Origin: a virus
DNA: 42,076 nucleotides
Virus record (IMG/VR): IMGVR_UViG_3300034190_002486
Span: 1 to 42,076 of that record
Reading direction: 5' to 3' (one strand)
Below, piece by piece: positions 619 to 37,618 of this stretch (position 1 is the stretch's first letter; each line of letters opens with the position of its first letter). The position numbers and the translations under genes were made by a program. The notes under the pieces were generated by a model. That model was not told the DNA's origin. It did not search any database and saw only the letters and a program-made list of their open reading frames with translations.

Positions 619-660
619 ACAATAAACGCACCACCGAACAATTTCAGTGATGCGCATCAC
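619..660 (-). promoter_or_regulatory. CRP-type class II promoter
   Basis: The operator GTGATGCGCATCAC (647-660, minus) is centred 41.5 nt upstream of the start implied by the -10 TATTGT (minus, 624-619). The -10 ends 30 nt before ATG 588. The operator overlaps a wobble-containing 9-bp stem-loop and lies at the 3' end of the head morphogenesis gene. Perfect half-sites and a helically exact spacing make it one of the clearest members of the family. Confidence 0.85.
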
Positions 661-662
661 AC

Positions 663-1763
663 TTACTTAATCTTCTTGAGGTAATCGGCTATCTGCTTAT
701 CTTTCGCTGCCATTTGGTCGATAGTCATAGGCTTATTCATGCGGTCAATCATCAGCGTTTTGAATTTATCGACTGACACACCAGAGTTTCGGAATATCTT
801 ACCCTTCGTTTTGCCTAGCACCTCATCTTGGAACTGTGTCGGTTGGTCAAATAGCCAGTCGTAATAGGTTTGTGTTGCGCTCACTTGCTTAGGGTCTTGT
901 TTTAATTCACCATCAACAAGCTTACCACCTCTAGATGAGCGCTTACCGTTTGGGTTTACTTCGTTATACCCCTTGACAATTCCAGCCGTACTCGAACGAC
1001 AAGAAAAATGTGCTGGCGGATAGTAAACTGGCTTATCATCAGCATAAATGTACTCATCGCCATCACGGTCGCGGCAGATATTACTTGTACGCTTATCAAG
1101 TGTGGATACCCATCTATGACCAATAACGACGCGATTGTTTTCTTTGTATACCTGCTTGCGTGCTTCATTGGCGTAATGATTGGTTGATGTTCTAACCAGA
1201 GTAACAGCGCTACGTCTATCGATATCCGCAATACCATCAGTAAACTTATTGGCGCGAGTACCTACGATGCTTTGAACCATTTGATTAGTTGGCACGCCGT
1301 TAGCGTATCCGATTTTAATCTCACCTTCGATACGCTGGCGTTGCTGTGTTGATACGTTAGTTAACCATTGCTCGAATTGAATAGCACCTGCACCAGTTTG
1401 AATTGGGTTAGCAATTGCAGCGGCGATAACTTGTGACGATGCAGGTACGGCAATATCTTGGTCAGTCACAGCGCCAATCATGCGCGCCTGAAAGTCTGTT
1501 TCGTATTCTGCAAACTCATCCAAGTCTAGTGTTAATTGATGTTGCCATTCCTCCATATTCGCAGTGATAACGCCGTCAACGTCTTTGATTAGCTTGTTGA
1601 ACTGTCGCTGCGTCATTGCGCTATCGTATCCGCCAAGCGCATTCTGGAGTAGTCGCAAGTAACCACCCCAGAACTCATTTAGTTTATTTACCTCTTGTGA
1701 TGCGAGTCTATTCACGTAAATACTGTGTGAAGATTCAGCCATCATCAGTGAATCAGCTGCCAT
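663..1763 (-). CDS. Head morphogenesis protein, SPP1 gp7/phage Mu F-like
   Basis: The 366-residue minor head protein matches the phage Mu protein F-like family. The signature is WVSTLDKRTSNIC (residues 218-230) followed by PPAHFSCRS (249-257). The conserved T-x-D-x-RT and PPxHxxCR blocks typify this family. An upstream VRTSTNHYANEAR segment (about 190-202) is also typical. Such proteins bind the portal and act in early capsid assembly or DNA entry. Gene order TerS-TerL-portal-this protein fits. The start at 1763 follows a terminator hairpin (1778-1801) and an extended -10 (TGATAAACT, 1802-1810), so it probably has its own late promoter. The ribosome site is modest (GGGTGA). Confidence 0.88.
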   Translation of the reverse strand: MAADSLMMAESSHSIYVNRLASQEVNKLNEFWGGYLRLLQNALGGYDSAMTQRQFNKLIKDVDGVITANMEEWQHQLTLDLDEFAEYETDFQARMIGAVTDQDIAVPASSQVIAAAIANPIQTGAGAIQFEQWLTNVSTQQRQRIEGEIKIGYANGVPTNQMVQSIVGTRANKFTDGIADIDRRSAVTLVRTSTNHYANEARKQVYKENNRVVIGHRWVSTLDKRTSNICRDRDGDEYIYADDKPVYYPPAHFSCRSSTAGIVKGYNEVNPNGKRSSRGGKLVDGELKQDPKQVSATQTYYDWLFDQPTQFQDEVLGKTKGKIFRNSGVSVDKFKTLMIDRMNKPMTIDQMAAKDKQIADYLKKIK

Positions 1764-1777
1764 TATATTTCACCCAT

Positions 1778-1801
1778 AAAAAAGCCCTCTAATTGAGGGC
1801 T
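1778..1801 (-). terminator. Intrinsic terminator ending the 1808-2575 cassette
   Basis: Perfect 7-bp stem AGCCCTC/GAGGGCT with a 5-nt loop, followed on the minus strand by six U. It separates the accessory cassette 1808-2575 from the head morphogenesis gene. Confidence 0.85.
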
Positions 1802-1810
1802 AGTTTATCA
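1802..1810 (-). promoter_or_regulatory. Putative late extended -10 promoter (head morphogenesis gene)
   Basis: TGATAAACT on the minus strand, directly before the terminator hairpin and overlapping the end of gene 1808-2116. Similar TGnTAAAAT elements precede six other structural genes. A transcript starting here begins inside the 5' arm of the hairpin and would not form the terminator. Confidence 0.5.
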
Positions 1811-2116
1811 TGAAGCTGTAATCATCATCGTGGCAATGAGGGCGACACATGCGGCGGTCATTGACCATGCGACCAACTTCCACTGTCGAGCCTCTTTCTT
1901 TGCCTTATCTTTTCTGTCATCGCTGTGAGATATGCATCTTAGTAAAGTGTGCTCGTAACTTGAATTGAAATCTCTCTGACTAAGCAGGTTAATGTATCGA
2001 ATCCAAAACCACTCAATAGACTCGCTTCTTGTTTCGCCTTTTACGTCCGCGTGAATCTTATCAAGCACATCACGCGCTTCAACTGTCATGATTGGTCGTA
2101 CTGTTTTGTTTGTCAT
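1808..2116 (-). CDS. Hypothetical tail-anchored membrane protein (102 aa)
   Basis: About 80 soluble, charged residues are followed by a basic stretch (KAKKEARQWK) and a single C-terminal hydrophobic segment of about 20 residues (VAWSMTAACVALIATMMIT). That topology suggests a cytoplasmic domain anchored at its C-terminus in the inner membrane. No family recognised. It is the last gene of the three-gene cassette 2575-1808, starts 2 nt after the preceding stop, and is followed at once by a terminator. A superinfection-exclusion or host-takeover role is possible but unsupported. Confidence 0.75.
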   Translation of the reverse strand: MTNKTVRPIMTVEARDVLDKIHADVKGETRSESIEWFWIRYINLLSQRDFNSSYEHTLLRCISHSDDRKDKAKKEARQWKLVAWSMTAACVALIATMMITAS

Positions 2117-2117
2117 A

Positions 2118-2297
2118 TCACTTGCTCGCTAATGTTCTGTTATGTACCGTACGAAGGCTGCCTGTTAAATCTCCGTTAATCGCTGCCATCATGTCGTCTA
2201 ATTGCTCTAGAAACTTGCGTCGCTCCTGTCGTGTTGCCAGTTGCGGTTTAGCTGCGTTGTCTTTCTTTCGTGCTTTGCTGCTTATTTGTGGGTTCAT
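2118..2297 (-). CDS. Hypothetical small basic protein (59 aa)
   Basis: A 59-residue ORF starts at ATG 2297, overlapping the stop of the DUF4406 gene (ATGA), and ends 2 nt before the start of the membrane-protein gene. The N-terminus is Lys/Arg-rich, followed by a probable helix (RRKFLEQLDDMMAAI). No domain recognised. Translational coupling on both sides supports it as real. Confidence 0.72.
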   Translation of the reverse strand: MNPQISSKARKKDNAAKPQLATRQERRKFLEQLDDMMAAINGDLTGSLRTVHNRTLASK

Positions 2298-2575
2298 TGC
2301 TCGATAATCTCCAGCTCTAGTTTTTCAGCATAAGCTAGCTCAGCCATTGCGCCCTTAGATTCTTCATATCCTTTCAGTAAGTAAATGGCATCAGCAGCGC
2401 GAATCATAGCAAAGCAAATATCCATGTACTGGCCTTGAGTTAAACCATCGGGCAATGTTGCTGGGTTTAGTGGTACAGCACCATTATTCAAGCAACAAGC
2501 AGCAGCGCTGTTGAAGCTATAGCGGTTAAAATTCTCATAACCAGTCATTGGCCCTGCGATGTAAATCTTCTCCAT
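2294..2575 (-). CDS. DUF4406 family protein (nucleoside deoxyribosyltransferase-like fold)
   Basis: The N-terminus KIYIAGPMTG and the later LLKGYEESKGAMAELAYAEKL are the two signature blocks of DUF4406, a phage and bacterial family related to nucleoside 2-deoxyribosyltransferases. The length (93 aa) is normal for the family. Its precise role in phages is unknown; nucleotide or base metabolism is the usual guess. It heads a cassette with a CRP-type promoter (2607-2667) and a GAGAGGAAG ribosome site. The -10 ends 31 nt before this start. The cassette sits between the portal and head morphogenesis genes. Confidence 0.85.
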   Translation of the reverse strand: MEKIYIAGPMTGYENFNRYSFNSAAACCLNNGAVPLNPATLPDGLTQGQYMDICFAMIRAADAIYLLKGYEESKGAMAELAYAEKLELEIIEQ

Positions 2576-2606
2576 GTAACTTCCTCTCTATTTAGTTGAC
2601 CCACAC

Positions 2607-2667
2607 ACAATAACCATACGACAGATAAAAGAAAAGCCCCATATAGAGGCTTTGTGAGTTGCGTCAC
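2607..2667 (-). promoter_or_regulatory. CRP-type promoter, operator near -60.5, with internal terminator
   Basis: Operator GTGAGTTGCGTCAC (2654-2667) starts just upstream of the portal stop. The -10 TATTGT (2612-2607) is 31 nt from ATG 2575, which places the operator centre at -60.5. Between operator and -10 lies a hairpin (2633-2653, AAAGCC/GGCTTT) followed by a U-rich run, which should terminate portal read-through. Confidence 0.78.
2624..2653 (-). terminator. Terminator after portal gene
   Basis: A 6-bp stem with a 9-nt loop and a U-rich tract interrupted by one C (minus strand). It lies inside the promoter module, between the CRP-type operator and the -10. Confidence 0.65.
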
Positions 2668-2670
2668 GTT

Positions 2671-4166: not shown

Positions 4167-4181
4167 AATATGGTGGATGGG

Positions 4182-4481
4182 TTATTTGTGCTTAGTTAGT
4201 AGCTCGTTAGCCTCTTCAACTATATCCGTGCATGCGTATTCGATACAGTCAGTGTCACAGCTATCGCCAATCTCGAAGCTAAATGTTTCAATTTCGCACG
4301 TTGCGACCTTGGCTAAAAAATCACGCAACTCCGCAATCTCATCAACCATGCGGTCGCGGTTTGCTTTTATATTTGTTACAGCGGTTAGTAGATTGTCAGC
4401 ATTTGAGTGTGATATTTCACCAACTCGCTCAAATTCAACCCATGCATTCTCTATAGAAACTTCAACTTCATTGCTATTCAT
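4182..4481 (-). CDS. Hypothetical acidic helical protein (99 aa)
   Basis: Soluble, acidic and mostly helical (IKANRDRMVDEIAELRDFL region), with four Cys in the second half (CEIE, CDTDC, YAC). No family recognised. It is a single-gene cassette between TerL and portal, with a CRP-type promoter upstream, a terminator downstream (4129-4157) and a GAGGAAAGG ribosome site. This gene-plus-promoter-plus-terminator layout is typical of a moron. Confidence 0.75.
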   Translation of the reverse strand: MNSNEVEVSIENAWVEFERVGEISHSNADNLLTAVTNIKANRDRMVDEIAELRDFLAKVATCEIETFSFEIGDSCDTDCIEYACTDIVEEANELLTKHK

Positions 4482-4499
4482 AAGCCTTTCCTCAATAAA

Positions 4500-4530
4500 A
4501 TAAAAACACGCAGCTATAGTAACTGCGTGT
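4500..4530 (-). terminator. Terminator after TerL with a -10 in its loop
   Basis: Perfect 8-bp stem ACACGCAG/CTGCGTGT with a 9-nt loop, followed by a U-rich tract on the minus strand. The loop carries most of the -10 hexamer TACTAT used by the downstream gene 4182-4481. Confidence 0.8.
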
Positions 4531-4557
4531 TGTTTTGTTGTCCGTGATGATTGTCAC
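4516..4557 (-). promoter_or_regulatory. CRP-type class II promoter
   Basis: Operator GTGATGATTGTCAC (4544-4557) lies just downstream of the TerL stop. It is centred at -41.5 relative to the -10 TACTAT (4521-4516), which lies in the terminator loop. The -10 is 34 nt from ATG 4481. Confidence 0.83.
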
Positions 4558-7753: not shown

Positions 7754-7917
7754 ATTGATAGTTCCTTTTTGTTAATTGATTTAATTATATTGCCGCGCCA
7801 GTAACTAAAGCCGCGATGTTTATCGTTATCATCAACCGCCATTAGTCTAGCCGCTTCATCAATGGAGTTAGTTTGCTTTAGGAGCGCTTGGCATAGCTCA
7901 AGGTTGAACTTATGCAT
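7750..7917 (-). CDS. Hypothetical protein (55 aa)
   Basis: ATG 7917 overlaps the stop of the 49-residue membrane protein (TAATG), and the stop overlaps the next start by 3 nt. The sequence has a helical N-terminal half (LCQALLKQTNSIDEAARLMAV), possibly half of a helix-turn-helix, then an aromatic GFSYWRGN segment. No family recognised. Overlaps on both sides support it strongly. Confidence 0.7.
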   Translation of the reverse strand: MHKFNLELCQALLKQTNSIDEAARLMAVDDNDKHRGFSYWRGNIIKSINKKELSI

Positions 7918-8066
7918 TAGAAGCTACCCGCAATGGCATCAGCAACAACGACACAGATAACGATGATTGCGCAAAAGCAAACCTGTTTAATCTTGCGTTC
8001 GAATCGCGCTTGTTCACTCAGCTCTTTCTTCACTCTTTCTAAATCTCTATCGTATCTGTATTTCAT
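7917..8066 (-). CDS. Small membrane protein (49 aa)
   Basis: A 29-residue charged N-terminal helix (RDLERVKKELSEQARFERKIKQ) is followed by one hydrophobic segment (VCFCAIIVICVVVADAIAG) and the C-terminus. No family recognised. It is the first gene of the operon read from the CRP-type promoter at 8096-8137. The -10 ends 29 nt from this ATG, and a GAGGTG ribosome site is present. Possible inner-membrane exclusion or regulatory peptide, unproven. Confidence 0.75.
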   Translation of the reverse strand: MKYRYDRDLERVKKELSEQARFERKIKQVCFCAIIVICVVVADAIAGSF

Positions 8067-8088: not shown

Positions 8089-8113
8089 AAGCCCAATCAT
8101 ATAGACAGGGCTT
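8089..8113 (-). terminator. Terminator-like hairpin with -10 in its loop
   Basis: AAGCCC/GGGCTT stem with a 13-nt loop that contains the -10 TATGAT of the downstream promoter. The U-run is short (CTTTGATTT on the minus strand), so termination may be weak. Confidence 0.6.
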
Positions 8114-8137
8114 GCGGTTGTCTGTGAGTTAGTTCAC
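8096..8137 (-). promoter_or_regulatory. CRP-type class II promoter
   Basis: Operator GTGAGTTAGTTCAC (8124-8137) overlaps the stop codon of gene 8129-8815 and is centred at -41.5 from the -10 TATGAT (8101-8096), which sits in a hairpin loop. The full 16-mer is TGTGA-N6-TCACA. Confidence 0.86.
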
Positions 8138-8815
8138 AGAATTTAACGAGGCGACAAGTTTGCACATATCGACAAACTCATCATCATTAAGATTAAATTC
8201 AAGAGGTCTGCCTTCGATCTCAATGGTAAATGAATCATCAAAGTCATCGCTCATCTCGCATGAGTTGTCAAGATAATCATAAAGCTCCTCTTTCCATGTC
8301 ATTGGGGTTTCGATTCGGCGGTATAGGTTGTTACATTTATATCTATCAAGCAGTTCATCAATACTATCCACAACAAGTTGCTCACTTGAACCCATCGTTG
8401 TAAAAATCACACCCTCGGAATAATCCCTCGCACACTCCCAAAAAGCACCTTCATTATAATTCCCATTGACCTTCAAATACTCAACCTTGGTGCGTGGTTT
8501 TTTCTCTTTCAATGCCGCGGCGCGTAGGACGTATCGGTCAATACCATCAATAATCTGAGATTCATCATTCCAGCCATTGATCAACCTACTACCGCTAATT
8601 ACTAAAAAGTTATCATTTTGACCCAAGCAGATATCCCCATCAACAAACTTATGACCATCAGCAAAAAACTTCTCAACTGTCATGCAGTAGTCGGAAGGGT
8701 TGCAGATGTCACTAGCTAGCGCCTCATAATTAAAGAAGCAAATTCCATTCACATGAAAGATTTCACACTCTGGATTAGCAATCTTAGCTTCTTGGTACGT
8801 GCTGTATGTGGTCAT
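8129..8815 (-). CDS. Acidic phage accessory protein (228 aa)
   Basis: The N-terminal part (about 1-100) is of unknown type. A C-terminal segment with NLYRRIETPMTWKEELYDYL (about 165-184) recurs at the ends of many unrelated phage accessory proteins. The end is strongly acidic (SDDFDDSFTIEIEGR). No catalytic motif seen. It is a single-gene unit with its own CRP-type promoter upstream (8846-8887) and the next operator overlapping its stop. Function unknown. Confidence 0.75.
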   Translation of the reverse strand: MTTYSTYQEAKIANPECEIFHVNGICFFNYEALASDICNPSDYCMTVEKFFADGHKFVDGDICLGQNDNFLVISGSRLINGWNDESQIIDGIDRYVLRAAALKEKKPRTKVEYLKVNGNYNEGAFWECARDYSEGVIFTTMGSSEQLVVDSIDELLDRYKCNNLYRRIETPMTWKEELYDYLDNSCEMSDDFDDSFTIEIEGRPLEFNLNDDEFVDMCKLVASLNSVN

Positions 8816-8838
8816 TTCTATTTCCTATCTAATTAATA

Positions 8839-8857
8839 CGCAGCCACTATAACTGCG
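8839..8857 (-). repeat. Inverted repeat enclosing a -10
   Basis: CGCAG/CTGCG arms with a 9-nt loop containing the -10 TATAGT on the minus strand. It is the same core as the hairpin at 4506-4530, but with shorter arms and no strong U-run. Confidence 0.6.
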
Positions 8858-8887
8858 CCATTGTTTAATTGCTGTGATGGTTGTCAC
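8846..8887 (-). promoter_or_regulatory. CRP-type class II promoter
   Basis: Operator GTGATGGTTGTCAC (8874-8887) is centred at -41.5 from the -10 TATAGT (8851-8846), and the -10 ends 30 nt before ATG 8815. The operator lies just beyond the stop of the 53-residue gene upstream. Confidence 0.87.
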
Positions 8888-9051: not shown

Positions 9052-9400
9052 GACAGCTATCCATCAAACAAAGCACCTTGCGCCATCTATCAAAAGGAAT
9101 ATCAGCCTCCTTGCGCTCCATCTTAGGTCGTTGATGCTTCATCTTGCGTGACTCACTCATCTTGCATTTAAGGCCGATTAGATTGTAAACCCATACGCCA
9201 TCAACCTTATAGCGCTCGATATTCACATACGACGAATCCTTAAACATATCGCTAAGATGTGCATTCGTTTTCTTTAAGTCCGTGCCAGCACTAGCAGCTA
9301 CATTAAAAGCCTTCATTGGACCCTTAGTCGCCAGGCACATTAGAATCTTGCCGCGCTCTTTGTCGGGTTGGTCGATTAGTTCAATTAGTTCTTTGTTCAT
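9044..9400 (-). CDS. Winged-helix DNA-binding protein (118 aa)
   Basis: ATG 9400 is chosen over a longer in-frame start because it overlaps the stop of the preceding gene (ATGA). Residues about 15-65 (ILMCLATKGPMKAFNVAASAGTDLKKTNAHLSDMF, then a strand pair ending GVWVYNL) fit a winged helix of the MarR/IclR type. The C-terminus is basic. It probably regulates transcription together with the adjacent 53-residue protein. The target is unknown. Confidence 0.7.
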   Translation of the reverse strand: MNKELIELIDQPDKERGKILMCLATKGPMKAFNVAASAGTDLKKTNAHLSDMFKDSSYVNIERYKVDGVWVYNLIGLKCKMSESRKMKHQRPKMERKEADIPFDRWRKVLCLMDSCHG

Positions 9401-9783
9401 TTCTCTGCATCCTTCATTTTTAGAAAGCAAATCCAAATAGCCCTTTGCACGCTGTCATTACTGTCAAAGTCCACTTGGTAATCTGTGCCTACCGGATTGT
9501 ATTTAGTGATAGTGCCAACACAACCGAGCTCATCATCTGGAAGTTCAATGCTAAATCCATACTCCACAGCGACAGGCATAACCCGACTCCAGTCATTAAC
9601 ACTAAAACTTTGCTCGCTGCCGAGGCTGGTTTTAAATTTAACAACGTCACTCTTGCCATTAAGCCCGACAACCTCAAGCAGGTCGTCAACTTCCTGCTCG
9701 TGATAGGTTATAAATTGACCTCGCATTTCTACCTTGCAAATCTCAAGGCCTAACTCCCAATCGCTCATATCTTCATAATTCAT
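9397..9783 (-). CDS. Hypothetical acidic protein (128 aa)
   Basis: An acidic protein rich in beta-strand-like segments, with a conserved-looking start (NYEDMSDWELGLEICKVEM). The phrase 'MSDWELG.. I...' resembles N-termini of many phage accessory proteins (MTDFEINKAV type), but no function is known. It is first in the operon 9783-9044-8890 under its own CRP-type promoter, with the -10 31 nt upstream and an AGGAAG ribosome site. Confidence 0.75.
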   Translation of the reverse strand: MNYEDMSDWELGLEICKVEMRGQFITYHEQEVDDLLEVVGLNGKSDVVKFKTSLGSEQSFSVNDWSRVMPVAVEYGFSIELPDDELGCVGTITKYNPVGTDYQVDFDSNDSVQRAIWICFLKMKDAEK

Positions 9784-9814: not shown

Positions 9815-9856
9815 ACAATACCAGCCACAAACAACCATTACTGTGACTGGTGTCGC
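9815..9856 (-). promoter_or_regulatory. CRP-type class II promoter (one operator mismatch)
   Basis: Operator GTGACTGGTGTCGC (9843-9856) has one changed base in one half-site. It is centred at exactly -41.5 from the -10 TATTGT (9820-9815), 31 nt before ATG 9783. The operator also forms the 5' part of a hairpin ACCAG-CACA/TGTG-CTGGT on the minus strand. Confidence 0.8.
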
Positions 9857-11540: not shown

Positions 11541-12014
11541 TTAAACCTCGACTTCTATTTCGTGAATCAGCATTAAATCGCGCTTTCCGTAATGCATATC
11601 AACATAATCATTAAGTAACCCTTCACTAGCGAAGCTTTCGGGTGTCACATAGAAAACATTTCCAGCCCAAGGGAAAGTTGCAATCCAGCGCTTCTCTTTC
11701 TTTGGTTTGATTCTTGTCTGGTGACTGGATCTCATGAAGCCACAAGTAGTTGAGAACCATTTCTTATTCCAGCCTTCACATGAATTCCACTGCCCAAACT
11801 CACCGCCGTGTTCAGACTCCCCACCATTCAACCAATGCAAGCAAGCCTCTTTGTGTTGCGGTAGGCATAGGAAGTAATTTATACACTCACCAAAATCAGT
11901 TGTGCCTTGGTCATTCTGAACTAACCATGACCCATCCTTTTGATTCTGGCTGAGTACGACCAAGTTCATATCCGCAGCCTTAGCTACAATCAAATCGTAA
12001 TGCTTATGTTTCAT
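11541..12014 (-). CDS. Hypothetical protein (157 aa), first gene of CRP-type operon
   Basis: A Trp- and Cys-rich soluble protein (LHWLNGGESEHGGEFGQWNSCEGWNKKWFSTTCGF in the middle) with an acidic C-terminus. No family recognised. It starts at 12014 with an AGGAAA site 30 nt after a TATTAT -10. It heads an operon of small genes (11540, 11323, 11154, perhaps 10934). Confidence 0.72.
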   Translation of the reverse strand: MKHKHYDLIVAKAADMNLVVLSQNQKDGSWLVQNDQGTTDFGECINYFLCLPQHKEACLHWLNGGESEHGGEFGQWNSCEGWNKKWFSTTCGFMRSSHQTRIKPKKEKRWIATFPWAGNVFYVTPESFASEGLLNDYVDMHYGKRDLMLIHEIEVEV

Positions 12015-12044: not shown

Positions 12045-12104
12045 ATAATAAACCACCAAAACTAAACATCAATCAAGGTGGTTCAATTGTGTGATGGGTG
12101 TCAC
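12045..12104 (-). promoter_or_regulatory. CRP-type promoter, operator near -59.5
   Basis: Operator GTGATGGGTGTCAC (12091-12104) overlaps the stop codon of gene 12101-12502. The -10 TATTAT (12050-12045) is 30 nt from ATG 12014. A hairpin AACCACC/GGTGGTT (12051-12083) fills the extra 18 nt between operator and -10 compared with the -41.5 promoters. Confidence 0.78.
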
Positions 12105-12502
12105 TTAATTGTTTTGATGTACTCAGCGCCCTGACCAGTTAGAGATACAACGACGTCATTCTCTTTATCTGAATGCATCGAGACCTTGATGTAATCCATA
12201 TGCATAAGTTCGTTTATCGCGCTCCTAACCTTACCAACAATTAATCCTCGCTCATCATCAAAGATGCTAGTTAGCGCAACGCGTCTAGATATTACATTCT
12301 TCATCAGTCCAACCTGAGTCCCAAACCTACCTTTCATGTACTTTAGAACCTCATTCTTAACAACGCTGTTTTTGAACTCCTCCCTTTCCTGACACGAGTC
12401 AATAGTTGGAGCACCTTCCATAGCTTTAAACATCGAAGCAGCCTCTAACTCATCGTCAAACTTAATCGCGTACATCAGCTCATCAATCTTTGTAATCTTC
12501 AT
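12101..12502 (-). CDS. Winged-helix regulator candidate (133 aa)
   Basis: The C-terminal half (about 88-133: KVRSAINELMHMDYIKVSM...NDVVVSLTGQGAEYI) has the helix, wing and 'SLTxxG' pattern of MarR-like winged-helix proteins. The N-terminal half is an acidic helical region. It is transcribed leftwards away from the large intergenic region 12503-13086, opposite the early genes. That is a good place for a regulator of the early-to-late switch. The role is inferred from fold-like pattern and position. Confidence 0.65.
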   Translation of the reverse strand: MKITKIDELMYAIKFDDELEAASMFKAMEGAPTIDSCQEREEFKNSVVKNEVLKYMKGRFGTQVGLMKNVISRRVALTSIFDDERGLIVGKVRSAINELMHMDYIKVSMHSDKENDVVVSLTGQGAEYIKTIK

Positions 12503-12994
12503 GTTTATCTATCTCCTTTGTTGTTTTGTAAATAGTAACATGAATCGCATCTATAACATTCAACTTTCGCACATTATTTTTTGTTTTACGCTTTTACTCG
12601 CAGATTTGCGACCAATTTGCATGGGGGGTCGCAAATTCGCATACCTAGCACTGAAGCCTTATTCTATAAGGGATTACTATGTAATTATTACTTATTATTC
12701 TCTCTAAAATACACTTATGCGACCCCCTACTAGGGGTAACTCGCAAAACCGCCCGATTCCGCCCAAAACCGTCCTCCGCAGGGGGTGTATATTGCGTTTA
12801 CTCGCATAAAATCACTACTTTTGCACGTAAGCTACTGATTACATTGATAAATAAATCATTTCAACTCATGCAAATCCACTCGCATTTTAAAATGCAAAAA
12901 CGCAAATTCCCCGAAAACTTCATATAAATCAATGTCTTGTATAAATACGCAAATTTGCGACTTCATGCGAGTAAATACAACAAACAGATTTAAC
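12503..12994. other. Divergent intergenic region A: repeated TGCGA/TGCAC motifs and AT-rich box
   Basis: About 490 nt without an ORF, followed by the promoter at 12995. It holds many copies, on both strands, of a short motif (ACTCGCA, TTTGCGAC, ATGCGAC, TTGCAC). Notable units are a CGCAAATTTGCG palindrome near 12950, the composite TGCGACCCCCTACTAGGGG near 12718, and CCTTATTCTATAAGG (12657-12671). An AT-rich stretch lies at about 12671-12715. Region B at 33835-34165 carries the same motifs. It may be a replication origin, or an operator array controlling the divergent promoters. Confidence 0.6.
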
Positions 12995-13055
12995 GTGATG
13001 CATGTCACATAAACAAACAAACCAGATAGACGCACATCATTGGTCGGTGTTTAAT
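12995..13055 (+). promoter_or_regulatory. CRP-type promoter for early operon, operator near -60.5
   Basis: Operator GTGATGCATGTCAC (12995-13008) and -10 TTTAAT (13050-13055), which ends 31 nt before the GTG start at 13087. The operator centre is at -60.5. No terminator hairpin is present, matching the absence of an upstream plus-strand gene. Confidence 0.72.
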
Positions 13056-14582: not shown

Positions 14583-15943
14583 TTAATGTTGCATACACTC
14601 CGCATTCACCAGAAGCTGAGATGGCCGTTATCAGCTCCATGGTGGAGGATTCGACGGTGATTAGCCGCGTTGAGTTTTTAAATGATGAAGATTTTTACAT
14701 GATGCCTCACAAGGTAATCTTCAATGTGATTATGGCTGAATACAAAAAGGGTAACGCTGTCGACATAAACCTAATCAGCGACAAGGTGCCGGACGAGGCT
14801 GGTGGGTTTGCTTACCTGGTTGATATCGTAAAAACAAAGTCAACTCCAAGAAACATTGTTTCGTACGCAAAGAAGATCGTTGAGTTATCAATCAGACGCT
14901 CGGCGATAGAATCTTATAATAACGCTGTGAATGGGCTCACAGACGTTTCAACAGAATATATGACCGAGATATCAACCGCGTCAGAAAAAGTCGACAGGAG
15001 CCTTTCTAGACTGTCTAACGGCGATATATTGACAGTTGACGAGTTGATAAACATGACCGCCGACGAAATGGAGAAGTCTTTACAGGATATTAGACTTGGA
15101 ATTGGTACGGGGATTCCTGAGATTGACGACAGGCTTGGTTATCAAAAACTAGCAACTGGTGAGATAACATACCTAGGCGCTCCATCAAAGAATGGCAAGA
15201 CGCTTTTTGCCAATACCATATCAGCAAGGTGCGATCTTCTTGACGATGAATGCGCACACATCTTCAGCATTGAAATGCCAGCCCTTGGGATGTTCAACGG
15301 CGTAGTGTCCGCACTTAGCGGTGTTCCTTCGAACTTCTATGCTAGACAGGCGTATTACAGCAAGGTTATGCCAGGTCGATATGACGAATGGATGGCGAAA
15401 TGGGGGTCAGCTGCTCACGAGCTAAAGAACAACGACAGAATAACTATTGATGGAAAGAAAGATGTAACCATGATGTATATTTGCAGTGAAATGAGAAAGC
15501 AGCACCAACTCATGGAAAACAAAGGTAAAAAGTTAAAGTTAGTCGTAATTGACCACTTACACAGAATCGCTTTTGATACATCAAAAAAACCGATGACATA
15601 CGCAATGGGTGATGATGTGAGAATGCTTAAAAACACTGCGTCAGACCTTGGAATTGCAGTGCTGTTACTGGGCCAGCTTAATGAAGCATGCAAGGACAGA
15701 GAGCCGACGGCATTCGACATTCTTGATACCTCAAGGGTTAGGCATGAAATTCAATGCTTCATCGGCACTAAGATTTTTAGGGAGAATGGAAATACATACT
15801 TTGGGATCTACTCAGACGCACACCGATACGCAGACCACGAAACACAATTTCATCCAGCATATGTGAGGCTGATTGCCGGCGTGGTTAGGTCGTTAGGTGA
15901 TAACGAAAAACACTGGACACCAAGTAAAACAAATGAACCATAA
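14579..15943 (+). CDS. dnaB: Replicative DNA helicase, DnaB-like
   Basis: A 454-residue ring helicase of the DnaB family. The DnaB-type N-terminal domain (about 8-110) begins HSPEAEMAVISSMVED. Walker A GAPSKNGKT is at 200-208, an IEMP motif (SIEMPALGM) near 230, and Walker B LVVIDH at 321-326. It unwinds the replication fork 5'-3'. Start overlap with the DUF4373 gene indicates a loader-helicase pair. Length and domain order are normal. Confidence 0.92.
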   Translation: MINVAYTPHSPEAEMAVISSMVEDSTVISRVEFLNDEDFYMMPHKVIFNVIMAEYKKGNAVDINLISDKVPDEAGGFAYLVDIVKTKSTPRNIVSYAKKIVELSIRRSAIESYNNAVNGLTDVSTEYMTEISTASEKVDRSLSRLSNGDILTVDELINMTADEMEKSLQDIRLGIGTGIPEIDDRLGYQKLATGEITYLGAPSKNGKTLFANTISARCDLLDDECAHIFSIEMPALGMFNGVVSALSGVPSNFYARQAYYSKVMPGRYDEWMAKWGSAAHELKNNDRITIDGKKDVTMMYICSEMRKQHQLMENKGKKLKLVVIDHLHRIAFDTSKKPMTYAMGDDVRMLKNTASDLGIAVLLLGQLNEACKDREPTAFDILDTSRVRHEIQCFIGTKIFRENGNTYFGIYSDAHRYADHETQFHPAYVRLIAGVVRSLGDNEKHWTPSKTNEP

Positions 15944-20032: not shown

Positions 20033-20074
20033 GTGAACCTCGTCACTGAAACATGTGGCGAGTTAATTTATTAT
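20033..20074 (+). promoter_or_regulatory. CRP-type class II promoter
   Basis: Operator GTGAACCTCGTCAC (20033-20046) lies 5 nt after the stop of the previous gene, centred at -41.5 from the -10 TATTAT (20069-20074). The -10 ends 30 nt before ATG 20105. Confidence 0.87.
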
Positions 20075-20104: not shown

Positions 20105-20386
20105 ATGAAAAAGGTAATTGTTGATTTTGGTTGGGACTGCGGTCGAATGGGTAGCGTTTCTTCAACATTTGTTTGCAACGAAGATGATTTAAATAGCGCT
20201 ATAGGCAGTGACATTTACTTTGGCGAGATTCTAGGCAAGCACTCAGAGGTTTATGGTACATTAGATCCCGAGGATGTAAAAATAGTATCAGACGACCAAG
20301 ATTTTATAATCAAGTTTGAAAAAGTAATGGGTGAAAACTGGTCATCAGGATACAACCCACTGCATTACATAAACGACGAAGAATAA
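20105..20386 (+). CDS. Hypothetical acidic protein (93 aa)
   Basis: The start at ATG 20105 is chosen because AAGGAAA lies upstream and the CRP-type -10 is exactly 30 nt away. A longer in-frame GTG reading from 20033 would place the operator inside the coding sequence. Acidic, beta-rich N-terminus (KKVIVDFGWDCGRMGSVSS). No family recognised. It is a single-gene unit between two strand-convergent regions, closed by a terminator. Confidence 0.72.
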   Translation: MKKVIVDFGWDCGRMGSVSSTFVCNEDDLNSAIGSDIYFGEILGKHSEVYGTLDPEDVKIVSDDQDFIIKFEKVMGENWSSGYNPLHYINDEE

Positions 20387-29987: not shown

Positions 29988-30437
29988 TTACTTTTTTACT
30001 TGTTCGATTGCCTCGTTAGTTTCTTTAATCCAGAATAACTCTTCACGGCTTGATATCTGGATTAGGTCATTAACTTGGTGCTTGTTTTCATCGGTAAGGA
30101 ATAACTTCTTCAACTCAGCAACACTAAATGGCACAACCTCGCCATCAGTATCATGAACATTCCAACCAGTCACGCATGTTTCAAGATAAGCTTCGAGCAT
30201 GGCTGATTCTGCTTGCTCTTGAAATAAAGCCAGCGTCTGCGCCCTTTCTTTAGCAGGTTGAGCCTTTGTTTTCTCACGCAATTCACCCTCGTCCATGCAA
30301 CCAGTTTTAACGGCGGTATTGATTAACAGTTGCTTTTTAAAGTTGCTGCGTAGTGTCGAGATGATATCAATAGTCATGTTATCACCAAGACCAACAGTGT
30401 AAGATTGCATGCCGACTGAGCGGTTAATTTTTATCAT
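29988..30437 (-). CDS. Tail assembly chaperone, G-like
   Basis: 149 residues between the tail tube and tape measure genes. Its last codons are GTA AAA AAG TAA, a classic slippery stop arrangement. Middle part VNTAVKTGCMDEGELREKTK-like helices and a C-terminal ISSREELFWIKETNEAIEQVKK. The chaperone role rests on location, length and the frameshift signal. Its start overlaps the Lar stop (ATGA), so it is coupled to the anti-restriction gene. Confidence 0.75.
   Translation of the reverse strand: MIKINRSVGMQSYTVGLGDNMTIDIISTLRSNFKKQLLINTAVKTGCMDEGELREKTKAQPAKERAQTLALFQEQAESAMLEAYLETCVTGWNVHDTDGEVVPFSVAELKKLFLTDENKHQVNDLIQISSREELFWIKETNEAIEQVKK
29991..29997 (-). other. Programmed -1 frameshift site A-AAA-AAG
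   Basis: Slippery heptamer in the correct phase immediately before the G stop codon (29988-29990). After the slip the next codons (GTA ATT GAG) lead without a stop into the frame of 29641-29967. This is the canonical E. coli-type -1 site used by tail chaperone genes. Confidence 0.85.
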
Positions 30438-30622
30438 ACTCTTTTGTTCCAGTTATCAATTGCTCTTAGTTTTTGCTTGAATATTTGGCACGACGTTTGT
30501 TCAAGAGTTATAGCCATAACCTCAGCGCCACAGCAAGAGCAAAAAACAGACCAGCCTTTTGCAACTCTAGCCATCTTTGCATCATGACCACAAAATGGAC
30601 ACGGTTTTAGTTTTTCACTCAT
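30434..30622 (-). CDS. Lar-like restriction alleviation protein
   Basis: 62 residues matching the Lar family: LKPCPFCG (Cys8, Cys11), CSCCGA (Cys28, Cys31) and AIDNWNKR at the end. The two CxxC pairs form a small zinc ribbon. Lar of the Rac prophage relieves type I restriction by modulating the host enzyme. ATG 30622 is chosen, not the longer reading from 30706. It has AGAGGAAA upstream and lies exactly 30 nt after the -10 of a CRP-type promoter that would otherwise be inside the gene. It is coupled to the tail chaperone gene. Confidence 0.85.
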   Translation of the reverse strand: MSEKLKPCPFCGHDAKMARVAKGWSVFCSCCGAEVMAITLEQTSCQIFKQKLRAIDNWNKRV

Positions 30623-30652: not shown

Positions 30653-30694
30653 ATCATAATAAATCCCGCGCCAAAGTAAAGCGACCGCCGTCAC
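30653..30694 (-). promoter_or_regulatory. CRP-type class II promoter for Lar (one operator mismatch)
   Basis: Operator GCGACCGCCGTCAC (30681-30694) is centred at -41.5 from the -10 TATGAT (30658-30653), 30 nt from ATG 30622. One half-site differs by one base. Confidence 0.8.
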
Positions 30695-33819: not shown

Positions 33820-33834
33820 ACTCTAAACCATCAG

Positions 33835-34165
33835 TTTTAACGTGTTATTCATTATACATTACGCGCAAGACGCAATTTGCGAGTGAATTTGCACCCCTAC
33901 TCGCATTTTAGTTTCTTATTAAAATCATGCACTTAGCTGAGTTTATGCACTTTTGCGACTTATGCACCCCCTAGGGCGTATGTACTTGCATTTTAGGTCG
34001 CGCAATCAGTAGGGTGTAAAAACCTGTATAGGTATATGTATATTTGTATTTTATAGTTATTTATTTAAGAGAGCCCTTACGTGGCAAGGGCTGCGAGCGT
34101 TTTGAGAAAATGCGACCCCTAGTGCAAATCACTCGCAAAAATGCAATTAAACACTGTTTTATTAG
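33835..34165. other. Divergent intergenic region B: same motifs as region A
   Basis: No ORF is visible. Many copies of TGCGA/TGCAC/ACTCGCA-type words occur on both strands, including TGCACCCCTACTCGCA (near 33891), TGCACCCCCTAGGG (near 33964) and TGCGACCCCTAGTGCA (near 34110). They share TGC-CCCCTA cores with region A. An AT-rich box lies at about 34030-34075 and a hairpin AGCCCTT/AAGGGCT (34076-34096) without a U-run. The -10 of the leftward connector operon (33851-33856) lies inside. Confidence 0.6.
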
Positions 34166-34169
34166 ATAT

Positions 34170-34211
34170 GTGAGATTCGTCACAGTAGTTTGGGTGGTAA
34201 GTGGTTAGAAT
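34170..34211 (+). promoter_or_regulatory. CRP-type class II promoter
   Basis: Operator GTGAGATTCGTCAC (34170-34183, full TGTGA-N6-TCACA) is centred at -41.5 from the -10 TAGAAT (34206-34211), which ends 30 nt before ATG 34242. No terminator hairpin is present, as no plus-strand gene lies upstream. Confidence 0.88.
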
Positions 34212-34241
34212 GGGTTCAACTTAAATGAAGAGGAAATAAAC

Positions 34242-34472
34242 ATGAAAAATTGGATTAGCGTGCACGACATTGAACCAAACGCGAACGAGCCCGTACTTTG
34301 TATTGGATGCAACGAAGAAGGTGAGTTTTTAGCGCCAGTGGTGGCAACCCTACATGATGATGGGAAGTTTATTATCGGATACAGATTTTATGGAGATCGA
34401 GCAATTGGGTTCTTCGTTGAAACTAACGTAACACACTGGATGCCGTTGCCTGAACTGCCAATTGAGGACTAA
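34242..34472 (+). CDS. DUF551 protein (76 aa)
   Basis: NWISVHDIEPNANEPVLCIG at the start and VTHWMPLPELP at the end are the two diagnostic blocks of DUF551, a small family common in phages of gram-negative bacteria and of unknown function. First gene of a five-gene accessory operon. GAGGAAA ribosome site. Confidence 0.88.
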   Translation: MKNWISVHDIEPNANEPVLCIGCNEEGEFLAPVVATLHDDGKFIIGYRFYGDRAIGFFVETNVTHWMPLPELPIED

Positions 34473-34474
34473 CC

Positions 34475-34654
34475 ATGCCAACACTATCAGTAAACACAAA
34501 AAGCGGCTTATACGCGCACATAGAGCTCATAGTTGAACGTTACGGCAATGATGCAAGGGTTATGCATGATAACCATCCACATTTGATTGTGAGCGCATCT
34601 AGAAGCAAAAAGCCGCACCATGTTGACATTAGCCTAAAGAGAATTGAACCATGA
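34475..34654 (+). CDS. Hypothetical protein (59 aa)
   Basis: ATG 34475, 2 nt after the DUF551 stop; the end overlaps the next start (ATGA). His-rich, basic C-terminus (HLIVSASRSKKPHHVDISLKRIEP). No family recognised. Confidence 0.65.
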   Translation: MPTLSVNTKSGLYAHIELIVERYGNDARVMHDNHPHLIVSASRSKKPHHVDISLKRIEP

Positions 34655-35037
34655 CCAAGGGCGACATTATAATCAGCTTCTTTCTTGAGCACGAGGGGGT
34701 TGAAGTTGAAATGTCAGAGGTTGTATCTGGTACAGGATTGCAACCACAACAGATAGCAACGACAATCTGGTGGCTTAATAACACTGGAAAGATAAATGGA
34801 CTTGTACGGCTGCGTAAGGGCGTCTATTGCTTTAAGCCCAAGTTCGATATTAAAAAACATAGAAGTCACGCTGAGATTGCGTATGAGGCGCTTAAAGAGA
34901 ATGATAGACTTAAGCCCGAACAGTTAGCGGAGATTGTTGATGTTCCAGAGTCTTATGTTTATCAGGTGATCAAACTGGTCAAGCAAAAGTACGGCGTTAA
35001 AATTAAACGACAAGTAACATACGAGGTGGTTAAATGA
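34651..35037 (+). CDS. Protein with two winged-helix-like units (128 aa)
   Basis: Two similar halves: about 3-60 (GDIIISFFLEHEGVEVEMSEVVSGTGLQPQQIATTIWWLNNTGKI...GVYCF) and about 70-120 (AEIAYEALKENDRLKPEQLAEIVDVPESYVYQVIKLV). Each has the helix-turn-helix plus wing pattern. It is probably a DNA-binding regulator of the accessory operon or of nearby region B. Coupled to both neighbours. Confidence 0.7.
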   Translation: MTKGDIIISFFLEHEGVEVEMSEVVSGTGLQPQQIATTIWWLNNTGKINGLVRLRKGVYCFKPKFDIKKHRSHAEIAYEALKENDRLKPEQLAEIVDVPESYVYQVIKLVKQKYGVKIKRQVTYEVVK

Positions 35038-35470: not shown

Positions 35471-35474
35471 AACT

Positions 35475-35501
35475 AAGCCTCCAATCACGGAGGCTTTTTT
35501 T
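35475..35501 (+). terminator. Terminator between convergent genes
   Basis: AAGCCTCC/GGAGGCTT perfect 8-bp stem, 6-nt loop, seven T on the plus side. Ends the accessory operon 34242-35470. Confidence 0.88.
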
Positions 35502-36003
35502 ATAGCTTCTTGCAAGTAGTAAACCCGCCAGAGCTTCCACGCGTTAACAAGTCAAACAAATACAACTCAGCGATAGTATCGAAGACTTGGTTTTCTTGGT
35601 CTTCTGGTGATAATCCGCTTGTGTATTCAACCTCTTTGAACATTCCACTCACCAGAGATTTCTTTTCACTCTTAATCGTTGCTCCCGGTGATGTCGATAC
35701 AACGCCCCTAACAACGCCGCTAAGAATTTGAAACGCAATCTCATACGTTGAGTTAATGACTTCACTAGGAACGCTGTCAGACGCGTACAGGCGACCTGTG
35801 TGACTGCCGTATGCATTCTTTCGAGCCCATTCCAGCTCTTGATTGATATCAGCACGCTCACCAATCCATTGAGAGCGATATTTTGAGTCTAGTTTTTTAC
35901 TTGATAGTTCAAGGTTATACGTAATTTGCTCATCGGTATAAGTCGAATAGTCATACCCCGCAGCGTCGCAGTAAAGCTTAAAGTCGGTAATATTGCCGTA
36001 CAT
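35500..36003 (-). CDS. Head-tail adaptor, DnaT-like ssDNA-binding-domain family
   Basis: 167 residues beginning MYGNITDFKLYCDAAGYD, with SSKKLDSKYRSQWIGERADINQELEWARKNAY (about 33-64). This is the pattern of the 'putative DnaT-like ssDNA-binding protein' family found at the head-tail adaptor position in many phages. It is separated from the other connector genes (33819) by the plus-strand accessory operon. An extended -10 TGCTAAAAT lies 36 nt upstream. A CRP-type palindrome (36006-36019) lies 2 nt before the ATG, overlapping the ribosome site. Confidence 0.72.
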   Translation of the reverse strand: MYGNITDFKLYCDAAGYDYSTYTDEQITYNLELSSKKLDSKYRSQWIGERADINQELEWARKNAYGSHTGRLYASDSVPSEVINSTYEIAFQILSGVVRGVVSTSPGATIKSEKKSLVSGMFKEVEYTSGLSPEDQENQVFDTIAELYLFDLLTRGSSGGFTTCKKL

Positions 36004-36005
36004 TT

Positions 36006-36019
36006 GTGATGTTCCTCAC
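36006..36019. promoter_or_regulatory. CRP-type palindrome in leader of adaptor gene
   Basis: GTGATGTTCCTCAC, full match to the operator family, but with no -10 at the expected distance in either direction. On the minus strand it lies between the extended -10 (36040-36048) and ATG 36003, so it would repress rather than activate. Confidence 0.5.
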
Positions 36020-36039
36020 AGTTTTGATTGTCTAGCGGT

Positions 36040-36048
36040 ATTTTAGCA
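36040..36048 (-). promoter_or_regulatory. Putative late extended -10 promoter (adaptor gene)
   Basis: TGCTAAAAT on the minus strand, 36 nt before ATG 36003. Same consensus as the other structural-gene promoters. Confidence 0.5.
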
Positions 36049-36051
36049 CTA

Positions 36052-36291
36052 TTAACCGTTGACGTGATTTGCATCGGTGCTAATATCAATCCCGTAGAAG
36101 AGATGCAGCGAATGTTTCTCCCACCAGTTCCGCAAGCCAAGACGGGTCATCCTTGCCCCGAGTGCGTTCAGGTGCAATTCGTTAGCGCGATGTTTTCTTA
36201 GTTTACATTGCATGGAAAGGGTAGCCACTTTCGCGGTAAGGCTTGACACTCTGGAAGAGACAGAGATAACCACTAAGCACGTTGGTATCAT
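36052..36291 (-). CDS. Doubtful ORF (79 aa) of atypical composition
   Basis: An open frame from ATG 36291 to a stop at 36052. It has a short hydrophobic start, then a basic and Leu/Trp-rich region (GLRNWWEKHSLHLFYGIDI). No ribosome site at this start and none obvious at an internal ATG (36213). Codons such as CGG, GGG, CTC and CTG are commoner than in neighbouring genes. It could be a recently acquired gene, or non-coding RNA sequence upstream of the tRNAs. Confidence 0.3.
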   Translation of the reverse strand: MIPTCLVVISVSSRVSSLTAKVATLSMQCKLRKHRANELHLNALGARMTRLGLRNWWEKHSLHLFYGIDISTDANHVNG

Positions 36292-36339
36292 TAATTTAAG
36301 TATTTTTGTTACGTATAAGGCAGCGTGTTTAGTCGTTAT

Positions 36340-36427
36340 GGATAGTTGACTGAGTGGTTAAAGGTAGCCGGTTGCTAACTGGTCGAGTGGAAACGCTCCA
36401 AGGGTTCAAATCCCTTACTATCCGCCA
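36340..36427 (+). tRNA. tRNA-Ser (GCU)
   Basis: Acceptor arms GGATAGT/ACTATCC, encoded GCCA end, class II long variable arm, GGTTCAAATCC T-arm and anticodon loop TTGCTAA giving GCU (reads AGC/AGU). 88 nt. A weak TATAAG -10 lies about 20 nt upstream. Confidence 0.93.
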
Positions 36428-36433
36428 ATTTTT

Positions 36434-36510
36434 GCACCATTAGTTCAATTGGATAGAGCATCTAACTTCTAATTAGATTGTTGTAGGTTCAAGTCCTACA
36501 TGGTGCGCCA
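36434..36510 (+). tRNA. tRNA-Arg (UCU)
   Basis: Acceptor arms GCACCAT/ATGGTGC with encoded GCCA, T-arm GTAGGTTCAAGTCCTAC, anticodon stem TCTAA/TTAGA and loop CTTCTAA giving UCU (reads AGA/AGG). 77 nt, 6 nt after tRNA-Ser, so the two are co-transcribed. AGA/AGG and AGC codons are used in the phage genes. Confidence 0.94.
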
Positions 36511-36656
36511 AATTAACCCCGTCATAAAACTTACTTTAGTTTGACGTCACTAGATATTTCGTCTTGGCGGGGTTTACCAAACTTAGCAATTAACGTCGCA
36601 TTCCTTCTTGGTCGTTGTCATGCGTTTGTTCAATTCATTGTTGATTGCTAACTACT
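36511..36656 (+). ncRNA. Possible structured RNA downstream of the tRNAs
   Basis: No ORF. Nested pairings are visible: AACCCCG/CGGGGTT (about 36513-36577) around a TGACGTCA palindrome, then TTAGCAAT/ATTGCTAA (about 36584-36652). The segment ends in a terminator at 36657. It could be a small RNA processed from the tRNA transcript, or simply a long 3' trailer. Confidence 0.4.
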
Positions 36657-36679
36657 AACCACCTTTCGGGGTGGTTTTT
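36657..36679 (+). terminator. Terminator of the tRNA transcript
   Basis: AACCACC/GGTGGTT 7-bp stem, 6-nt TTTCGG loop and a T-run. Confidence 0.85.
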
Positions 36680-36698
36680 CTTTATCTAACGCGCACAA

Positions 36699-36736
36699 AA
36701 AAGGGCCCTCCAGTAGCGATAGAAAAGGACCCTCTT
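36699..36736 (-). terminator. Hairpin, possible minus-strand terminator
   Basis: On the minus strand AAGAGGGUCC pairs with GGGCCCUUUU (10 pairs including G-U), followed by U. No minus gene directly upstream is evident. Two more hairpins follow in this gene-free stretch: CTAAACC/GGTTTAG (about 36766-36786) and TAACAGATT/AATCTGTTA (about 36808-36831). Confidence 0.5.
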
Positions 36737-36915
36737 ACCTAACCAGCATCCCAAGCCAATCAGGACTAAACCGTATCAGGGTTTAGCAATGTCACTTCAC
36801 AGCGAGTAACAGATTTAACGCAATCTGTTAACGAGATGGATATCACCTCACCAATGAAACCTAGATTCAATATAGGCGTTATAATTAAAGCCTGTCAAGT
36901 TTAATGGTGGATAAA

Positions 36916-37344
36916 ATGCAAACGGTTAATTACGAAATTATCAAACAGTTCGAGGGTCTACGGCTTGAGGCTTACAAATGCCCTGCCGATGTATGGACAA
37001 TCGGCTACGGTCACACAAATAAGGTCAAACAAGGCGATGTAATCACAGAAGGAGAGGCTGATATTCTGCTTGCTCTCGATGTGCAAGAGGCCGAGCGCGC
37101 TGTTAGTTCTTATGTTGACGTGGATATCAATCAAAATCAATTCGACGCACTGGTGAGCTTTGTGTACAACTTAGGCGCGGGTAACTTTAAGTCGTCCACA
37201 TTACTAAAGAAGCTTAACCAAGGTGATTATCTTGGTGCGGCTAATGAGTTTCACCGATGGAACAAAGCAGGCGGTAAAGTGTTGCGCGGCCTAGTTCTCC
37301 GCCGTGAAGCTGAAGCAAATCTATTTATTGGAGTTAAAGCATGA
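36916..37344 (+). CDS. Endolysin, GH24 lysozyme
   Basis: 142 residues from ATG 36916. This start is preferred to ATG 36904: GGTGG lies 5 nt upstream, and a perfect TATAAT is exactly 30 nt upstream, the spacing seen throughout the window. Catalytic pattern E-8aa-(D/C)-5aa-T: Glu13 (QFEGLRLEAY), Cys22, Thr28 (WTIGYGHT). Later DALVSFVYNLGAGNF and LRGLVLRREAE blocks are typical of T4/P22-type lysozymes that cut peptidoglycan. No signal or SAR segment is visible, so a holin would be needed for release. Confidence 0.92.
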   Translation: MQTVNYEIIKQFEGLRLEAYKCPADVWTIGYGHTNKVKQGDVITEGEADILLALDVQEAERAVSSYVDVDINQNQFDALVSFVYNLGAGNFKSSTLLKKLNQGDYLGAANEFHRWNKAGGKVLRGLVLRREAEANLFIGVKA

Positions 37345-37562
37345 ACAAATTCGCATTAATCGCAAATGTAGTCGCAAAGATTGGACCTAAAGTTAAAGGT
37401 TGGATTTTCGCAGATGGTAAGTTTCAAAAGACTCGCGCCATTATTATGCTTGTTGGTTTTGGTTTGATCGCCTTGAGTGTTGAATACTTCGGTGCGGCCA
37501 ATACGCAAATCTCACTAGAGCTACTAGACGCACTAAGCGACATGATTGGTTATGTAGAGTGA
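37341..37562 (+). CDS. Small membrane protein next to endolysin (73 aa)
   Basis: Overlaps the endolysin stop (ATGA). A basic N-terminal amphipathic part (VAKIGPKVKGWIFADGKFQKTR), one hydrophobic helix (AIIMLVGFGLIALSVEYF) and an acidic C-terminus. Its place suggests a lysis function such as holin, antiholin or spanin component, but one membrane pass and no known motif leave it open. Confidence 0.65.
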   Translation: MNKFALIANVVAKIGPKVKGWIFADGKFQKTRAIIMLVGFGLIALSVEYFGAANTQISLELLDALSDMIGYVE

Positions 37563-37618
37563 TGCAAGTCACACTTTAGAATCAATCTAATTGTAATCCT
37601 CGTTGTAGTTGGTAAAGT
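37559..37618 (+). promoter_or_regulatory. CRP-type promoter, operator near -59.5
   Basis: Operator GTGATGCAAGTCAC (37559-37572) overlaps the stop codon of gene 37341-37562. The -10 TAAAGT (37613-37618) is 30 nt from ATG 37649. The -10 sits in the apical loop of the terminator hairpin 37595-37643. Confidence 0.8.

Follow-up and report, generated by a model that had tools for sequence, protein, structure and literature searches.

The 42,076-base virus record IMGVR_UViG_3300034190_002486 from IMG/VR, analysed here in its entirety and called the window below, contains a genome-wide set of GTGA-N6-TCAC operators. These sites are very probably binding sites for the host complex of cyclic AMP (cAMP) and CRP, and appear to form promoters that head exchangeable accessory genes. 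The window is the genome of a siphophage, kin of phages that infect Vibrio cyclitrophicus and V. splendidus, and seven relatives (ZQ26, 1.060.A, 1.291.O, 1.284.A, 1.047.O, 1.113.A and 1.197.A) share ~80–89% identity with it over aligned segments. A search for prophage relatives via the terminase in 84,980 bacterial species returned best matches of only 42–47% identity and no close one; with no close bacterial terminase relative there is no sign of lysogeny or prophage life, and the phage is apparently non-integrating.

Operators and promoter geometry

Exact GTGA-N6-TCAC occurs 12 times in the window, compared with a mean of 0.77 in 100 dinucleotide shuffles (maximum 5; none of the 100 reaches 12). 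An earlier note on this DNA had listed twelve sites, all of which are present, ten as exact matches and two with one mismatch (9843 and 30681); two further exact matches, at 14927 and 36006, complete the set. Among the 256 N6 palindromes, GTGA/TCAC is the most frequent both in the window and in all seven relatives (10–12 sites each), and the other palindromes show no enrichment. Other spacer lengths give only 0–3 matches in the same genomes, making the enrichment specific to N6. The sites, their promoters and the genes behind them (cargo, each in its slot) are as follows.

647–660 (−): class II operator (−41.5); −10 TATTGT at 619–624; slot after a head-morphogenesis gene; cargo 304–588 (−), 94 residues, without Pfam or PHROG match; 7/7 relatives have unrelated genes in its place
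2654–2667 (−): near class I operator (−60.5); −10 TATTGT at 2607–2612, with a terminator hairpin at 2633–2653 between the two; cargo 2294–2575 (−), DUF4406
4544–4557 (−): class II operator adjoining the terminase stop codon; −10 TACTAT at 4516–4521; cargo 4182–4481 (−), 99 residues
4505–4531 (−): intrinsic terminator hairpin, −15.4 kcal/mol, with a T-rich tail and the −10 TACTAT of slot 4544 in its loop
8124–8137 (−): class II operator; −10 TATGAT at 8096–8101, within a hairpin at 8089–8113; cargo 7917–8066 (−)
8874–8887 (−): class II operator; −10 TATAGT at 8846–8851, within a hairpin at 8838–8858; cargo 8129–8815 (−), of a family found behind such promoters in 16 phages
9843–9856 (−): class II operator with one mismatch (GCGA); −10 TATTGT at 9815–9820; cargo 9397–9783 (−)
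12091–12104 (−): near class I operator (−59.5); −10 TATTAT at 12045–12050; cargo 11541–12014 (−)
12995–13008 (+): near class I operator (−60.5); −10 TTTAAT at 13050–13055; stands before the rightward early/replication operon from 13087
20033–20046 (+): class II operator; −10 TATTAT at 20069–20074; cargo 20105–20386 (+)
30681–30694 (−): class II operator with one mismatch (TCGC); −10 TATGAT at 30653–30658; cargo 30434–30622 (−), Lar-like
34170–34183 (+): class II operator; −10 TAGAAT at 34206–34211; cargo 34242–34472 (+), DUF551
37559–37572 (+): near class I operator (−59.5); −10 TAAAGT at 37613–37618; hairpin at 37595–37643 with the Shine–Dalgarno sequence within its 3′ arm; cargo 37649–38053 (+), MazG-like
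36006–36019 (−): site over the ribosome-binding site (Shine–Dalgarno sequence) of the head-completion gene 35500–36003 (−)
14927–14940: exact match inside a DnaB-like helicase gene

The geometry given in the earlier note proved exact. At 647, 4544, 8124, 8874, 9843, 20033, 30681 and 34170 the operator centre lies 29 nt from the −10 element, which places it at −41.5 from the implied start in eight of the twelve listed sites; the distance is 47 nt (−59.5) at 12091 and 37559 and 48 nt (−60.5) at 2654 and 12995, and the −10 element stands 29–34 nt from the start codon. None of 20,000 permutations matches the −41.5 alignment of the window. The genes said to be served by the operators were also located behind them: accessory cargo, the early operon (12995), the Lar-like gene (30681) and the MazG-like gene (37559).

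To look beyond one clade, we pooled 188 oriented sites from 25 phage genomes after filtering promoters at 60% identity. A −10 element lies at exactly 29 nt in 44 of these 188 sites, where other offsets average 5.4, giving 44 non-redundant promoters with the operator at −41.5. Bases that played no part in selecting these promoters are also biased: T at −49 (82%), A at −34 (77%), G at −33, the third base of the −35 element (75%), G at −14, as in an extended −10 (64%), and A at +1 (59%) preceded by a pyrimidine (73%). Across the pooled set the start codon mostly falls 67–76 nt from the start of the site, with a peak at 72. The near class I geometry of the earlier note held in part: it is strictly conserved in the clade but barely rises above background in distant phages, where the −59.5 and −60.5 counts are 8 and 8 against a background of 5.4, so a general class I rule is unsupported outside the clade.

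Conservation between relatives

We located orthologous promoters in the relatives by their upstream sequence alone, which kept the operator itself from influencing their selection. In these promoters the half-sites differ at only 4 of 408 positions (1.0%), whereas the N6 spacer between them differs at 60 of 306 (19.6%). The upstream sequence itself differs at 734 of 4386 positions (16.7%), the linker at 7.8% and the key −10 positions at 2.6%. A second method, based on the flanks at either side, admits a few non-orthologous alignments at 20033; it agrees with the first at the individual loci. The spacer at 12995 has been replaced in five of the seven relatives (26/42 differences) while the half-sites are untouched (0/56), and in the four near class I loci of the clade neither the half-sites (0/224) nor the −10 elements (0/84) differ. 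This pattern points to purifying selection limited to the half-sites and the −10 element.

These data bear on the simplest alternative, that the sites arose by chance or descend from one ancestral promoter inherited or copied within a single clade. In its favour, the close relatives are similar enough that their sites are not independent. However, the enrichment, the spacer specificity and the geometry recur in phages with few or no head genes in common, after the 60% identity filter, and purifying selection is confined to half-sites and −10 elements. We give this explanation almost no credence.

CRP specificity and the identity of the activator

The consensus site of V. cholerae CRP, which shares 96% identity with its E. 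coli counterpart, is TGTGA-N6-TCACA (PMC10328515). We built a weight matrix from 41 V. cholerae chromatin immunoprecipitation sequencing sites (P below about 0.001) chosen from a table of PMC6050953. Applied to the window, this matrix gives 11 matches compared with 0.7 in simulations, and it ranks 13 of the 14 window sites first to thirteenth among 42,061 windows of matrix length. By this measure from selected Vibrio sites, the dyads match host CRP specificity, including the flanking T and A, which were not part of the search pattern. Other operator-rich phages have 6–13 matches to the same matrix where 0.2–1.2 would be expected; Seahorse (1 match), 1.182.O (0) and 1.029.O (1) show no enrichment. 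A CRP weight-matrix scan of the genome and its relatives, with tests of enrichment and spacing, had been proposed in the earlier note; carried out here, these analyses found the sites enriched, specific to N6 and mostly spaced at −41.5.

The operator at 8124–8137 (GTGAGTTAGTTCAC) is one base off the CRP site of the E. coli lac promoter, GTGAGTTAGCTCAC.

As an alternative to host cAMP–CRP, the earlier note had raised a CRP-like protein encoded by the phage. This was not borne out: profile searches of 23 phages, in which positive controls were detected, found no PF00027 (cNMP-binding) match and no PF13545 (HTH_Crp_2) match above cut-off in any of them (0/23 for each). Moreover, none of the window's proteins is represented by a homologue in every operator-rich phage; BUCT_X002 and 1.106.O, for example, lack counterparts of its head-morphogenesis and portal genes and of its tail genes of tape-measure size. 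With no phage CRP homologue above cut-off and no common protein, a host factor is the simplest explanation, and host cAMP–CRP is most likely the activator. The matrix, the conservation of the dyads, the −41.5 geometry and the unselected start-site bases all support that reading in silico.

A different phage transcription factor could in principle bind the dyad and activate these promoters as a middle-gene switch. Two candidates are present in 7/7 close relatives: gene 12101–12502, the first leftward early gene of the clade, which carries a winged helix-turn-helix (HTH) annotation in two relatives, and gene 34651–35037, which has weak HTH/TrmB matches. Neither is detectable in the distant phages that have the same sites and geometry, the dyads fit a bacterial CRP matrix better than nearly every other 16-mer of the genome, and site 12995 sits on the rightward early operon itself. 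We therefore regard a phage activator as quite improbable. A second motif (ACTCGCA, CGCAAATTTGCGAC, GCGACCCC) is clustered in both orientations in the large intergenic regions 12590–12972 and 33876–34145; it could possibly represent origin iterons or the operators of a clade regulator such as 12101–12502 or 34651–35037.

Several observations weigh against activation by host CRP. First, site 30681 scores only 9.1 with the CRP matrix and ranks 26th. Second, four phages have weak HTH_Crp_2 matches below cut-off. Third, a Vibrio host for the window phage is presumed from relatives that grow on V. cyclitrophicus and V. splendidus. Fourth, the system is missing from three phages of Vibrio whose helicase is related to that of the window (1.182.O with no sites, Seahorse with one and 1.029.O with three). 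Fifth, sites 36006 and 14927 are out of activation register. Finally, cAMP–CRP acts directly on genes of phage T1 and represses them, namely pir, dam and recE (PMC6737242).

The last two points deserve further comment. Site 14927 is probably a chance match, and we treat it as such because close relatives lack its gene and one match should arise by chance. Site 36006, by contrast, has the best CRP-matrix score of the genome (rank 1), and its half-sites show 0/56 differences in the seven relatives even though its spacer differs at 9 of 42 positions and has changed in three of them. No −10 element stands at a class II or class I distance from this site, which could be a repressor or roadblock site. 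Together with the T1 precedent and the good extended −10 of many promoters, the position of site 36006 over a ribosome-binding site would suit a role in which CRP binds but chiefly represses or tunes the promoters, holding accessory genes down at high cAMP. We judge this unlikely for the set as a whole: an exact −41.5 position combined with a poor −35 element is the classical activation arrangement (PMC10328515, PMC6050953), and a repressor would need no single fixed −10 spacing across 44 non-redundant promoters.

Exchange of genes behind fixed promoters

In 53 of 73 comparisons between relatives, the promoter is kept while the gene behind it is unrelated, which we defined as a self-score ratio below 0.15. 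Promoter identity per locus between relatives is 74–100%, and nearly always above 80%. Genes also change slots: DUF4406 is found in slot 2654 of the window and slot 647 of 1.197.A, and a DUF551-like gene (MKGWTSIHDSYPGK) occupies slot 30681 of 1.060.A while the DUF551 gene of the window lies in slot 34170. Across the set we counted 89 cargo families, the largest of which stands behind such promoters in 16 genomes, and the same families turn up behind these promoters in phages whose heads are unrelated. Most cargo is without a match; the Pfam names that were obtained include NinX, Lar, C5, N6/N4 and D12 DNA methylases, Nmad5, dUTPase, RecT, DUF4406 and a superinfection-immunity family. In slots 8874, 9843 and 12091, several cargo families keep their first 10–15 residues (MTTYNTYQEAKIANP, MNYEDMSDF, MKHKHYDKIVAKA) and diverge thereafter, as if recombination joined genes within the first codons.

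Since the sites lie at borders between conserved and exchanged sequence, the dyads might be thought to serve as recombination or packaging signals that mark points of exchange, with the promoter geometry incidental. Conservation nevertheless continues through the −10 element and ribosome-binding site to the start codon, start-site nucleotides are enriched and the spacer is free to vary, leaving such signals with a negligible claim. Slot architecture of this kind, like the spread of the sites past this genome, the overlap with terminators and site 36006, goes beyond what the earlier note had described.

Terminator hairpins at the promoters

The terminator at 4505–4531 has weaker counterparts at promoters 8874 and 8124, where the −10 element also lies in a hairpin; at 2654 and 37559 a hairpin separates the operator from the start codon. 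A strong stem encloses the −10 element in 8 of 41 non-redundant class II promoters (control 1.2), and 5 of those 8 also have a T-tract (control 0.17, maximum 2). With these frequencies a terminator around the −10 is not a universal feature; a −10 element inside a terminator loop is real but belongs to a minority. Such hairpins may insulate the slots. Read-through from the upstream gene would be stopped, and transcripts born at the promoter, lacking the 5′ arm, would continue.

Distribution among other phages

Scanning IMG/VR with the class II pattern led to further Vibrio phages, in which a reversed-pattern control gave 0–2 matches. The site counts are 8 in phiHSIC, 16 in P23, 12 in ValSw3-3, 10 in VnaS-L3, 12 in jenny, 11 in 1.144.O, 15 in 14E30.2, 12 in 2E1, 11 in 1.236.O, 15 in 1.106.O and 16 in BUCT_X002. 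Hosts of these further phages are V. alginolyticus, V. natriegens, V. anguillarum, V. crassostreae, V. lentus, V. sagamiensis and Listonella pelagia. Among IMG/VR terminase relatives in other lineages most are unenriched, and one distant contig with 50% terminase identity (L038) is enriched. As 1.182.O, Seahorse and 1.029.O grow on Vibrio and do without the system, it is not obligatory; these three phages offer a natural comparison for its loss or lack. Literature searches, in a collection without most subscription papers, returned no report of a phage-wide CRP regulon or of morons driven by CRP. The ValSw3-3 paper gives 97 predicted promoters and leaves CRP unmentioned.

Similar arrangements appear outside this group. 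The contigs behind L131, L074 and L065 (G001, G012 and G013; 64–90 kb), from apparently unrelated phages, have 8–9 GTGA-N6-TCAC sites each (control 0–1) at loci of ~31–33% GC. These sites often read GTGATATATATCAC; some have a −10 element at class II distance and some a TTGACA-like sequence downstream. Five further viral contigs (L060, L075, L078, L091 and L114), one of which weakly matches a Pasteurella phage, have in common a class II CRP-like promoter, GTGATC-N4-TCACTTTAAA followed by TATGAT or TATAAT and a leader, with different genes behind it.

A model for accessory-gene expression

These sequence features suggest a model in which most slots would be class II promoters, with the CRP site centred at −41.5, a poor −35 element bearing G at −33, a frequent extended −10 and A at +1; four loci of this clade would instead use a CRP site near −60. 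Each promoter would form a constant head, attached where a conserved gene ends, with the gene behind it exchangeable. On entry, host RNA polymerase and cAMP–CRP would fire all slots without a phage factor, and each transcript would begin with a leader of ~24 nt followed by the start codon. Slot expression would then track host cAMP. CRP occupancy, activation, dependence on cAMP or the carbon state of the host, and timing are all predictions from promoter architecture.

Because a promoter of this type would require only host RNA polymerase and CRP, cargo should function whatever the slot, phage or Vibrio host, and portability of this kind would account for the same cargo families standing behind these promoters in phages with unrelated heads. 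More broadly, the evidence slightly favours the view that host CRP is a universal expression interface adopted by many unrelated Vibrio phages, with a cargo pool that is plug-compatible across slots, phages and host species and is coupled to carbon state; the interface may extend to the low-GC phages of 64–90 kb.

There are several implications. First, a standard expression head that depends only on a conserved host protein would provide a concrete reason for the easy movement of accessory genes between unrelated phages. Second, the model predicts that expression of accessory and counter-defence genes in marine vibrios, and perhaps the outcome of infection, follows host cAMP and hence sugar supply; the cargo concerned includes restriction-alleviation proteins, DNA methylases, dUTPase and a superinfection-immunity family. 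Third, the promoter alone could serve as a simple finder of accessory genes in Vibrio phages. Finally, because phiHSIC carries the system, one could test how nutrients affect its life cycle; the title of the phiHSIC genome paper reportedly calls this phage pseudotemperate.

Comparison with known systems

The window promoters share with class II CRP promoters of E. coli and with V. cholerae murQP, where activation is proven and requires CRP at −41.5 (PMC10328515), a TGTGA-N6-TCACA site at −41.5, a −10 element and a weak −35, and an activator of the host type is present in Vibrio. They differ in number and placement, as some twelve occur per genome in this phage and in distant relatives, each before an exchangeable gene. 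Phage T1 likewise has host CRP acting directly on phage genes, tying expression to sugar status, as is predicted here (PMC6737242). In T1, however, CRP represses its targets in a lysogeny–lysis switch, whereas the window geometry would have CRP activate accessory genes dispersed over the genome of an apparently non-integrating phage.

Two kinds of mobile accessory gene provide closer parallels. Lambdoid morons are accessory genes lodged between core genes; each brings its own promoter and, in many cases, a terminator. By sequence, the window slots likewise hold accessory genes between core genes, each with a promoter, but here the promoter belongs to the conserved backbone, the gene alone is exchanged and one host activator would serve all slots. 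The PeSLs of T4-type phages, reportedly described by Arbiol et al. in 2010, are said to be mobile cassettes in which a repeated promoter and stem-loop border shuffled accessory genes, the promoters being T4 early sigma70 promoters without an activator. Slots at borders and shuffled genes are also found in the window, with a stem-loop in a minority only; compared with PeSLs, the window unit includes an activator site, and a terminator surrounds the −10 element only in that minority. The phage-wide CRP arrangement resembles morons and PeSLs but combines a shared activator site with a promoter that resides in the backbone.

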